64,000 bases of DNA from Chitinophaga vietnamensis. GTDB taxonomy: Bacteria; Bacteroidota; Bacteroidia; Chitinophagales; Chitinophagaceae. How positions within the stretch are numbered: position 1 is the first letter of the stretch; the number at the start of each line of letters is the position of its first letter. Where the stretch lies: contig NZ_CABHMS010000005.1 of NCBI RefSeq assembly GCF_902167635.1, positions 434,001 through 498,000 of the forward strand, written 5' to 3'. A program made the translations under genes and the position numbers. Positions 61,533-64,000 of the stretch are shown here, piece by piece. The notes beneath the pieces are model-generated. The model saw only the letters and a program-made list of their open reading frames with translations, did not search any database and was not told where the DNA came from.

Positions 61533-61563
61533 TTGTTTTTTATTTTTTTCACAGATACTTTTG
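61533..61563 (+). promoter_or_regulatory. Candidate promoter of the ilv operon
   Basis: TTG at 61533-61535, a 20-bp spacer, then TACTTTTG at 61556-61563, a full match to TAnnTTTG. Transcription would begin close to 61570, giving a ~305-nt leader before ilvE that contains repeat R10, the leader peptide and the attenuator. Confidence 0.65.
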
Positions 61564-61584
61564 TATCGATATGGAGCGCAACCT

Positions 61585-61657
61585 CCAAATCAATCAAAAA
61601 ATCCGGAAATCAAAAATTCAAAATTCAAAAATCGAAAATCCGGAAATTCGAAAATTC
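61585..61657. repeat. Complementary-arm octamer run R10 inside the ilv leader
   Basis: AT-rich units of the complementary type (CCGGAAAT, CAAAAATT, CAAAATT, CAAAAATC, GAAAATCC, GGAAATTC, GAAAATTC). It is transcribed as the first part of the ilv leader and ends 6 bp before the leader peptide ATG. It is more degenerate than the other elements. Confidence 0.65.
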
Positions 61658-61663
61658 TCCATT

Positions 61664-61780
61664 ATGTGGATCAATAAAGACAACATAAAACTTAATCACA
61701 TCGTACCCCAGCTCAACTGGGCTATCACGAAGGTCGTGATTATCGTCGTTGTCATTATTAGCCACCACCATGGAGGATAG
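61664..61780 (+). CDS. ilv operon leader peptide (38 residues, Val/Ile-rich)
   Basis: A short ORF with ATG 61664 and TAG 61778-61780. Residues 24-32 are VVIIVVVII: nine Val/Ile codons in a row at 61733-61759. Four more Ile, one Val and two Leu codons occur earlier. This is the pattern of attenuator peptides such as the E. coli ilv leader, in which shortage of charged tRNA-Val or tRNA-Ile stalls the ribosome. The peptide ends SHHHGG. The frame is open upstream to ATG 61571, but that codon would be at the mRNA 5' end and the extension is made of repeat R10, so 61664 is preferred. The next genes are ilvE and ilvD. Confidence 0.88.
   Translation: MWINKDNIKLNHIVPQLNWAITKVVIIVVVIISHHHGG
61707..61740 (+). 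promoter_or_regulatory. Two small hairpins within the leader ORF, possible pause signals
   Basis: CCCAG/CTGGG (61707-61711 with 61717-61721) and ATCACGA/TCGTGAT (61724-61730 with 61734-61740) are adjacent perfect stems. The second ends in the first Val codons. They could pause RNA polymerase so that a ribosome can catch up, as the 1:2 hairpin does in known attenuators. Confidence 0.5.
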
Positions 61781-61821
61781 GTACACGTGCATATTCACAA
61801 AATGATATAACGCCTTCCTCC
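61772..61821 (+). promoter_or_regulatory. Antiterminator of the ilv attenuator
   Basis: GGAGGATAGG (61772-61781) pairs with CCTTCCTCC (61813-61821): nine base pairs with the T of the TAG stop codon bulged. The 5' half contains the stop codon of the leader peptide and lies 12 nt beyond the Val/Ile run. The 3' half is the 5' arm of the terminator. A ribosome stalled on Val/Ile codons leaves GGAGGATAGG free; a ribosome at the stop codon covers it. Confidence 0.8.
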
Positions 61822-61844
61822 GCCAAGAGGAAGGCTTTTTTTTT
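61812..61844 (+). terminator. ilv attenuator terminator
   Basis: GCCTTCCTC (61812-61820), a 6-nt loop, GAGGAAGGC (61827-61835) and nine consecutive T (61836-61844). It is a strong intrinsic terminator located between the leader peptide and ilvE, 31 bp before the ilvE ATG, and it is mutually exclusive with the antiterminator. Confidence 0.92.
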
Positions 61845-61875
61845 GATCACTTTTTACTGCTAATAATTCAATTTT

Positions 61876-62778
61876 ATGTATAGCTATTACAACGACAACA
61901 CCATTCTTTACCTCAACGGAGAATTCCGTAAAGCCACCACTGCCAGCGCTGATCTGTTTGGGCAGTCATTACACTACGGCTATGCCGTATTTGAAGGTAT
62001 CCGCGCCTACAAAACTGCCAGCGGAGAAGTGAAGATCTTCAAGGCCAAAGAACACTTCGACCGTTTGCAGCGCTCCTGCGAGCTGATACACATCCCGTAC
62101 AAATTCAATAACGAGGAGCTCATCGCCGCCTGTTACAAGGTGCTGGAGCTGAACAATATGGAAGAAGCCTACATCAGGCCGCTGGTGTTCTGTCCGCCCA
62201 ATATGACCCTGAAAGCCGCATCCGAGGCCTATATCCTCATATGCGCATGGGAATGGGGCGCCTATCTCGGGGAGAAACTGCTGCGGGTAATGACCTCCTC
62301 CTTTGAACGACCGAATCCCAAGGCATTCAAGATAGAATCGAAATCGGCCGGCCTGTACGTAAACTCGATACTCGCCTCGCAGGAAGCAAAAGATAAGGGC
62401 TACGACGAAGCATTATTACTCGATATGAATGGTTACGTAGCAGAAGGCCCCGGCGCCAACGTATTCTTTGAAAAAGACGGTAAAATCTTCACCCCACCCC
62501 TCGGCAACATCCTCGCCGGCATCACCCGCGCCACCGTTATAGAACTTTGCCAGGAACTCGGCATCCCCCTCGAAGAAAAATTATTCACCATCGATGAACT
62601 GAAACAAGCGGATGCCGCCTTCTTCTGCGGTACCGCCGCAGAGGTGATCGGCCTCGAATCCCTCGACGGACAAGCATTTGCCAAACCATGGGCAGAATCC
62701 CTCGGTAAAGTGCTCCAGCAAGCCTACAAAGCAAGAGTGCTCGAAAAAACTTTCGAACGCCAGGCGCAATTAGCATAA
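61876..62778 (+). CDS. ilvE: Branched-chain-amino-acid aminotransferase
   Basis: 300 residues, fold type IV PLP enzyme. Conserved parts are LHYGYAVFEGIRAY, YIRPLVFCPP, ESKSAGLYVNSILA with the PLP Lys, and GYVAEGPGANVFFEKDGKIF then LAGITRATVIEL and GTAAEVIGLESLD. It makes the last step of Leu, Ile and Val synthesis and the first of their breakdown. Being first gene after the attenuator and followed by ilvD supports a biosynthetic role. Confidence 0.95.
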   Translation: MYSYYNDNTILYLNGEFRKATTASADLFGQSLHYGYAVFEGIRAYKTASGEVKIFKAKEHFDRLQRSCELIHIPYKFNNEELIAACYKVLELNNMEEAYIRPLVFCPPNMTLKAASEAYILICAWEWGAYLGEKLLRVMTSSFERPNPKAFKIESKSAGLYVNSILASQEAKDKGYDEALLLDMNGYVAEGPGANVFFEKDGKIFTPPLGNILAGITRATVIELCQELGIPLEEKLFTIDELKQADAAFFCGTAAEVIGLESLDGQAFAKPWAESLGKVLQQAYKARVLEKTFERQAQLA

Positions 62779-62786
62779 AACAGGAT

Positions 62787-62820
62787 GGATCGGTATATCA
62801 CACCGGCGATATACCGATCC
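62787..62820 (+). other. ilvE-ilvD intercistronic stem-loop
   Basis: A 13-bp perfect stem, GGATCGGTATATC with GATATACCGATCC, around an 8-nt loop, 8 bp after the ilvE stop. No U-tract follows, so it is more likely an mRNA-stabilising or processing element than a terminator. The rest of the 242-bp gap holds no defensible gene. Confidence 0.7.
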
Positions 62821-62927
62821 ACAAAATTCTTTGAACAATGTAAAACGAAAAAGTCAAAATCCACTACCACCAAGGGTTTTGAAGAGATCAAGCCGAATTT
62901 GAAGACCGGTAATCACGCAATTGTTGG

Positions 62928-62958
62928 TTTGAATTTAAACACACTACCGGGTAATTTG
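62928..62958 (+). promoter_or_regulatory. Weak candidate internal promoter before ilvD
   Basis: TTTG at 62928-62931, a 20-bp spacer and TAATTTG at 62952-62958, which is one base short of TAnnTTTG. It would start transcription about 55 nt before the ilvD ATG. Confidence 0.3.
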
Positions 62959-63020
62959 GTGAAACTTTTAGAAAAAGGACGATCACCCATTCCCTGCAAC
63001 ACGGGAGAAATCATCAAGCA

Positions 63021-64000
63021 ATGGAATTAAACAAATACAGCAAAACGATCACGCAGGATCCTACACAACCCGCTGCACAGGCTATGTTGCACGGGATCGG
63101 ATTAACAGACGAAGATCTGAAGAAAGCACAGGTAGGCGTTGTGAGCATGGGATATGATGGCAACACCTGTAATATGCACCTGAACGACCTCGCCAACGAC
63201 GTCAAAAAAGGCGTGTGGGCAAACGGACTGGTAGGCCTGAATTTCCATACTATCGGCGTCAGCGATGGTATCAGCAATGGTACCGAAGGTATGCGCTATT
63301 CGCTCGTGAGCCGCGATCTGATTGCAGATTCCATTGAAACCGTATGCGGTGCGCAATACTATGATGGCCTCATCACCGTGCCTGGCTGCGATAAGAACAT
63401 GCCCGGCTCCCTGATGGCCATGGGCCGCCTCAACCGCCCTGCTATCATGGTATACGGCGGTACGATCGCACCCGGTAAATACAAAGGTCAGGACCTCAAC
63501 ATCATCTCCGCATTTGAAGCGCTCGGTCAGAAAATGGCCGGCCAGCTGAATGAAGAAGATTTCAAAGGCATCGTGCACAATGCCTGCCCCGGCGCCGGCG
63601 CCTGTGGCGGGATGTACACCGCCAATACCATGTCTTCTGCCGCAGAAGCACTCGGTATGAGCCTGCCCTACAGCTCATCCAACCCCGCCCTGAGCAAGGA
63701 AAAACGCGATGAATGCGCCGCTGCCGGCAAATACATCCGCCTGCTCCTGGAAAAAGATATCAAACCCCGCGATATCATGACCAAAGAAGCATTCGAAAAT
63801 GCCATCACCGTCATCATCGCGCTGGGAGGCAGCACCAACGCCGTTCTCCACCTGATCGCCATCGCGAAATCCGTAGGCGTGAAAGTGACGCTGGAAGATT
63901 TTCAACGCATCAGCGACAACACGCCGCTCATCGCCGATCTGAAGCCCAGCGGCAAATACCTGATGGAAGACCTCCACAACATCGGCGGTGTGCCGCTGGT
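63021..64000 (+). CDS. ilvD: Dihydroxy-acid dehydratase (5' part, runs off the window)
   Basis: 326 codons from ATG 63021 to the window end with no stop. Family features are [20 protein letters not shown] (first Cys ligand), [40 protein letters not shown] (second Cys) and [20 protein letters not shown] (third Cys), the cluster ligands of the IlvD/Edd class. It forms the 2-oxo acids for Ile and Val. Position after ilvE and the attenuator shows an ilv operon that continues outside the window. Confidence 0.96.

Follow-up and report, generated by a model that had tools for sequence, protein, structure and literature searches.

A putative ribosome-mediated attenuator in front of the ilv genes of Chitinophaga, with a predicted clasp between start and stop codon

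Results

The ilv locus and its leader

The window analysed here, a 64,000-nucleotide stretch of Chitinophaga vietnamensis DNA, runs at its far end into a set of ilv genes on the + strand. The first of them, ilvE (61876–62778), encodes a branched-chain aminotransferase (TIGR01122, 277 bits against a cut-off of 246) and is followed by ilvD (63021–64000), which is assigned by gene order and NCBIfam cut-off and is cut by the window end. The gene order is ilvE-ilvD-ilvB-ilvN-ilvC-ilvA on one strand, with ilvB and all later genes lying beyond the window; every product passes its curated NCBIfam cut-off, which confirms the calls of ilvE and then ilvD behind the terminator made in the original prediction. 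The six genes probably form one transcript, with a gap of 242 nt between ilvE and ilvD, and their products include valine and isoleucine, the residues that make up the leader run described below. An 81-codon ORF (62785–63030), a candidate gene, spans the ilvE-ilvD gap and overlaps the start of ilvD.

The leader ORF (61664–61780, + strand) starts at ATG 61664, stops at TAG 61778–61780 and encodes a peptide of 38 aa, MWINKDNIKLNHIVPQLNWAITKVVIIVVVIISHHHGG, that ends in Gly-Gly-stop and has a counterpart in 79/79 genomes of the genus. Its codons 24–32 (61733–61759) are nine consecutive Val/Ile codons, hereafter the run, and the positions predicted for ORF and run were right to the base. The last two codons, the stop codon and one further base form segment 2, the pivot (AUGGAGGAUAGG, 61770–61781), which has two alternative partners, segment 1 and segment 3. 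Segment 3 (61812–61821) is both the 5' arm of the terminator and the 3' arm of the antiterminator, and segment 4 (61827–61835) with the U9 tract (61836–61844) completes an intrinsic terminator between the leader ORF and ilvE. In the antiterminator, 61772–61781 pairs with 61813–61821 through nine pairs with one bulged U (duplex energy −16.1 kcal/mol); in the terminator, 61812–61820 pairs with 61827–61835 ahead of the T9 tract (−15.5 kcal/mol). The antiterminator shares the terminator 5' arm and so excludes the terminator. These coordinates agree with those of the original prediction, including the overlap of the antiterminator 5' arm with the peptide's own stop codon, and the terminator (61812–61844) is also picked up by a terminator scan (3 sites found, 0.6 expected). 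Two possible pause hairpins had been proposed as well, one of which, within the ORF, is kept in an RNAalifold consensus of 34 congeners (columns 77–104, with double changes at two pairs, in 1 and 2 sequences); the other found no independent support.

No other stretch of at least seven consecutive Val/Ile codons exists in any of the window's six frames, and in none of 100 dinucleotide shuffles did nine occur in a row. The fold of the 280-nt leader (61571–61850) has a z-score of −6.2, and 0/200 shuffles were equally stable.

Promoter and 5' leader

The promoter region (61533–61563, + strand), read on the sequence, consists of TTG at 61533–61535 and, 20 nt further on, the −7 element TACTTTTG at 61556–61563. 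The latter fits TAnnTTTG, which we take to be the Bacteroidetes-type promoter element, and was found where it had been predicted; a sigma-70 promoter scan returned no + strand site. In 79/79 genus genomes, the 160 nt preceding the leader ATG contain TAnnTTTG; of the 83 matches 78 lie 20–46 nt from the ATG, four lie at 147–148 nt, and one, that of C. vietnamensis, lies at 100 nt because an AT-rich stretch has been inserted there. The 5' leader (61564–61653, + strand) contains an AT-rich stretch that exceeds its counterpart in other members of the genus by about 70 nt. The repeat-like, AT-rich insertion at 61571–61660 is seen in the C. vietnamensis leader only, and the ORF frame stays open through it to an upstream ATG at 61571; in the genus-wide alignment, however, the shared start codon is that at 61664.

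In several other genera of the family (loci L095, L103, L113, L114, L115 and others), an inverted repeat was seen by eye around the −7 element, about 45–10 nt before the leader ATG, for example GGGTGTAT...ATACATCC and GAAATGTA...TACATTTC. This repeat, which is not evident in the window, is a candidate DNA operator or 5' RNA hairpin.

A predicted clasp between start and stop codon

Segment 1 (AUUCUCCAU, 61654–61662), located just 5' of the leader ATG, pairs with 61770–61778 (AUGGAGGAU) through nine pairs, and this clasp is contained in the minimum free energy (MFE) fold of 61571–61850. The original prediction had called the arrangement simpler than the four-segment E. coli type; that description fails, in that an additional segment at the start codon can pair with the pivot in 79/79 genus genomes. 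The pyrimidine block within 9 nt of the ATG reads CCTCC in 73, CTCC in 4 and CCTC in 2 of the 79, and in every one a 12-nt window that opens 9 nt ahead of the ATG reaches a pairing energy with the pivot of −7 kcal/mol or better; for windows starting from the ATG to +57, at most 5% reach it. CCTCC is absent from the 12 nt before ilvE in all 79. With L021 left out, the clasp is part of the MFE fold of the leader up to the pivot in 78/78 genomes and of the full leader in 73/78. Against shuffled sequences it scores p < 0.05 in 68/79 genus loci and in 9/30 loci of other genera.

The clasp is absent from the RNAalifold consensus of the 34 congeners, in which a nearby CCACC is instead the weak partner of the pivot, and an ACGUG after the stop codon that of the start codon. 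We attribute this to the pyrimidine block, which stands at slightly varying distance from the ATG and so puts the alignment columns out of register. In its own genus, the leader has a predicted protector segment that could hold the pivot when the leader is untranslated.

Distribution in the genus and family

IlvE is present in 79/79 Chitinophaga genomes searched, and the upstream DNA was read in all of them. A short ORF with a run of 9–10 Val/Ile/Leu codons and a Gly-Gly-stop end precedes ilvE in each, including L079, where ilvE is split in the assembly and the leader is intact. The family sample comprised 107 genomes. An IlvE at E ≤ 1e-60 is present in 40, including three Chitinophaga genomes; of the 37 loci outside Chitinophaga, one at a contig end was dropped and 36 were examined. 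Run, stop codon and T tract were found by script in 31/36 of these, while by eye L090 has an interrupted and L111 a weak run, and the remaining three (L096, L098 and L109) have no leader, ilvE there following closely after another reading frame.

A second list comprised 80 named ilvE loci, of which those closest to the window's ilvE are from Chitinophaga. All 42 at its Chitinophaga end (L124–L165) have the leader, and they probably for the most part repeat species already among the 79. Among the remaining 38, there are 27 with a run of at least six codons and a scored terminator, 3 with a run and no scored terminator, and 8 without such a run. Pedobacter, which is among the 27, has very different arms (GGCGCT with AGCGCC) laid out on the same plan.

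Compensated pairings and conserved spacing

Aligned with the upstream regions of relatives, the leader keeps its Val/Ile run, pairings and spacing, and both pairings are compensated; the original prediction had named a conserved run and compensatory changes in both pairings as support. Across 54 sequences of genus and family, 96.9% of antiterminator cells are paired, with a covariation of 0.194 (shuffled, 0.079; slid, at most 0.100), and 99.7% of terminator cells, with a covariation of 0.321 (shuffled, 0.131; slid, at most 0.081). Much of this covariation is a single split, Chitinophaga versus the rest. Extra support for the pairings comes from L122, where CAGAGGAGC pairs with GCUUCUCUG, from L121, with C-G in place of U-G, and from the Pedobacter arms. 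The strong terminator hairpin and its tract of 7–9 U are conserved and compensated.

The antiterminator is more stable than shuffled sequence (p < 0.05) in 69/79 genus loci, the other 10 failing at this threshold, in 30/30 scored family loci (two of 32 were set aside by the filter as lacking a terminator) and in 27/27 scored named loci. Its mean energy with each locus's own arms is −15.8 kcal/mol in the genus and −16.7 kcal/mol in the family; when arms are swapped between the clades, these become −11.8 and −13.3 kcal/mol, a loss of about 3–4 kcal/mol.

Two natural variants bear on the pivot itself. In L102 and L177, a different reading frame runs through GGAGGTGG (Arg-Glu-Val-Val), and in L107 and L185 a TGA stop falls at the pivot and leaves GAGGTGG; within each pair the leader sequences are the same, and the two loci may come from a single species. 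The antiterminator pairing is intact in all four loci, and the pivot appears to be kept as RNA despite the changed frame or stop position.

The distance from the last codon of the run to GGAGG is 12 nt in 61/79 and 15 nt in 17/79 genus loci, the one remaining locus, L021, having GGGGG in place of GGAGG at 12 nt. Among the family loci, 31 in number, it is 12 nt in 24, 9 nt in 2 and 11 nt in 1, and GGAGG is absent in 4. The front edge of a stalled ribosome lies about 12 nt ahead. Judged by this spacing, a ribosome stalled in the run would leave the pivot free, and one at the stop codon would cover it.

Related leaders elsewhere in the genome and class

A covariance model of the leader finds a second site in the same genome, 17.6 kb past the window, in front of genes for prephenate dehydratase, prephenate dehydrogenase, DAHP synthase and 3-dehydroquinate synthase (the prephenate dehydratase and DAHP synthase calls score under the cut-offs of the named models). 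Tandem Phe/Tyr(/Trp)-rich leaders, MIPQATFGFFGFYYFWYQE and MYHMTSIHNNYFFYYYAYFFYAEKPGTHLQ, lie there (L235:3580–3870, approximately 515580–515870 of contig 5), each followed, by eye, by a terminator-like hairpin, the second with a weak U tract. The gene was found in 60 genomes; 30 genus loci were examined, and both leaders are present in 30/30. In the first leader, a segment 1 just before the Phe run pairs behind the stop codon at p < 0.05 in 29/30; for L280–L283, the script took the wrong T tract for segment 3 in this test. Five-His-codon runs occur at 20 places in the genome, and no plausible leader was found among the 10 that were read; the short ORF at one of them (L291) was rejected, as it has no terminator.

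Run against the order (198 genomes), the model matched 41 at E ≤ 0.01, some of which belong to the training set; when 18 others of the 44 model-match places were read by eye, ilvD or ilvE was the next long ORF in 15. In 247 genomes of the class, 14 were matched at E ≤ 0.001, own genome and family included. Two of the class-level matches, L297 and L298, have Thr/Ile-rich short ORFs (MTINNTTIITIITTGKYFGGK and MYNSTIIITIIITTGRNLAEE) followed by terminator-like hairpins and are candidate threonine/isoleucine attenuators. At G742:C5:207352–207578 and G761:C14:15663–15899, two model matches with Val/Ile leaders stand in tandem about 25 nt apart, possibly as double attenuators.

Discussion

Proposed mechanism

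With high confidence, the leader is a ribosome-mediated transcription attenuator that would adjust the ilv genes to the supply of charged Val- and Ile-tRNA. This reading, put forward in the original prediction, is supported by the conserved run, the compensated pairings, the spacing and the cognate genes downstream, and by a like design with Phe/Tyr codons ahead of the aromatic genes of this genome. We infer the following course of events, including the effect of starvation and the part played by the clasp. With Val- and Ile-tRNA plentiful, the ribosome would reach the stop codon and cover the pivot (61770–61781), the terminator hairpin (61812–61835) would form, RNA polymerase would be released on the U tract, and ilv expression would be kept low. 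With either tRNA in short supply, the ribosome would stall in the nine-codon run; GGAGG begins 12 nt past the run, close to the ribosome's front edge, so that the pivot would be left free to pair with 61813–61821, preventing the terminator and allowing the ilv genes to be transcribed. Without a ribosome on the leader, segment 1 would clasp the pivot, making termination the default.

A single ribosome at codons 24–32 leaves segment 1 uncovered, and the clasp could therefore compete with antitermination. Antitermination would prevail either by kinetics or by a following ribosome that holds segment 1. A stronger version, which we put forward as tentative and rather unlikely, is that the attenuator is gated by a ribosome queue: because segment 1 at the start codon clasps the pivot at the stop codon, antitermination would need two ribosomes, one stalled in the run and one at the start site. 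If this were true, the long, conserved N-terminus of the peptide would be a spacer for the queue, and the switch would read initiation rate as well as tRNA supply. The number of codons before the run is 21–23 in the genus; in other genera, where the clasp is mostly absent, it is 11–20.

The leader peptide and alternative explanations

On sequence grounds the leader ORF looks translated. Codons 2–22 have pS 0.507 and pN 0.075, and the resulting pN/pS of 0.148 compares with 0.144 for IlvE (75 of the 79 sequences; L079 was left out because its ilvE is split, and three others because codon 2 is not Trp). The run has a pS of 0.259, lower than in any of the 21-codon ilvE windows tried (0.57–0.85), and N-terminal pS is also slightly below the ilvE windows. 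The N-terminus of the peptide thus appears to be kept as protein in Chitinophaga, and the run to be constrained at the base level too. In 294 family genomes, a profile of the leader peptide matched six genomes of the own genus and, weakly, one sequence with an internal stop, and this confinement suggests that the N-terminus is genus-specific. Three leader peptides searched against Pfam and NCBIfam gave no match above cut-off, small membrane protein families included.

This protein-like evolution of codons 2–22 and the genus-wide retention of the N-terminus are what would be expected if the ORF encoded a small membrane protein, polar at its N-terminus and hydrophobic in its Val/Ile stretch, that stands before ilvE on account of its function and is followed by an ordinary terminator. 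We consider this explanation very improbable. The N-terminal sequence is not found beyond the genus, yet run, pivot and terminator are; the run is almost purely Val and Ile, the products of the downstream genes; GGAGGTGG is preserved as RNA when frame or stop shifts, as in L102 and L107; a Phe/Tyr version stands before aromatic genes; and the antiterminator would be left without a role. The peptide may have a role besides attenuation.

Even less probable, in our view, is a T-box, riboswitch or protein-binding terminator, in which the folded RNA would be the sensor and the ORF incidental. The pair of terminator and antiterminator taken by itself fits such devices, but nothing in the window attains the gathering score of any Rfam family, no T-box appears among leader matches up to E 5, and conservation falls on the ORF, the run and the switching arms. 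The best leader match is Thr_leader (RF00506; 20.4 bits, E 0.15, gathering cut-off 55), itself an attenuator.

Translational coupling or attenuation, in which leader translation would control translation of ilvE rather than termination, would suit the closeness of the leader to ilvE (stop codon 95 nt before the ATG) and is similarly remote, given a strong hairpin with a tract of 7–9 U that is conserved and compensated, and a start neighbourhood of ilvE that was not seen to pair with the switching arms and lacks the CCTCC motif in 79/79.

Relation to known attenuators

Attenuation of ilv operons is classic. The trp, his, thr and ilvGMEDA attenuators of E. coli and Salmonella, as commonly described, likewise place a leader peptide rich in the product amino acid and a terminator before the first structural gene, and they also share a pivot that pairs with the terminator 5' arm and a protector pairing. 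The anatomy differs, in that segment 1 of Chitinophaga lies 5' of the start codon, whereas in E. coli and Salmonella it lies within the ORF near the control codons, and in that the Chitinophaga pivot consists of the last two codons and the stop, so that the 1:2 pairing would enclose the whole ORF, unlike in those systems. A 2004 survey by Vitreschak and others reportedly named Bacteroidetes/Chlorobi candidates.

Reports on Corynebacterium glutamicum ilvBNC (ilvB-II motif; PMC11857589, PMC10272879) describe a Val/Ile/Leu leader before ilv genes, as here, with an H1 hairpin that shields the translation initiation site and acts as antiantiterminator. The leader of that system is 15 aa, its translation begins a single base after the transcription start, and the consensus given there is from Corynebacterium; the Chitinophaga leader has 37–38 aa and a predicted clasp that runs from start to stop.

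The original prediction regarded such attenuators as mainly proteobacterial and actinobacterial and was undecided on a precedent in Bacteroidetes. A 2010 survey states that before its Firmicutes case no leader-peptide system was known beyond Proteobacteria and Actinobacteria (PMC2965389). A precedent had already been suggested in the same phylum, where the Flavobacterium psychrophilum transcriptome gave "strong clues" of leader-peptide attenuation upstream of amino-acid operons (PMC9723704), the position that the leader has in Chitinophaga. In Bacteroides thetaiotaomicron, some long 5' UTRs carry short ORFs "reminiscent of leader peptides" (PMC7366714), and the Bacteroid-trp motif (RF01692) is tabulated as a likely cis-regulatory RNA of Bacteroidetes (PMC2864571). 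That motif is a separate Rfam family, linked to trp by name, with no match in the window at gathering score.

No description of an ilv attenuator from Chitinophaga or Bacteroidetes was found in the titles or abstract beginnings of open-licence literature. The core mechanism is known, and seems to operate here in a phylum with scarcely any documented case of it; as far as the literature searched goes, the C. vietnamensis member, the reach of the design and the start-to-stop clasp are new.

Implications for coupling in Bacteroidota

Ribosome-mediated attenuation works only if a ribosome follows close behind RNA polymerase. In Bacteroidota, translation mostly starts without Shine-Dalgarno pairing, and the coupling of transcription and translation has been little studied. 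Anatomically, the start-to-stop clasp is a well-defined variant, open to testing by a few base changes. Conserved attenuators of the ilv and aromatic genes in Chitinophaga, together with the Val/Ile leaders ahead of ilvD or ilvE elsewhere in the order, would imply that coupling is under selection in Bacteroidota, and such attenuators would be ready reporters of it.
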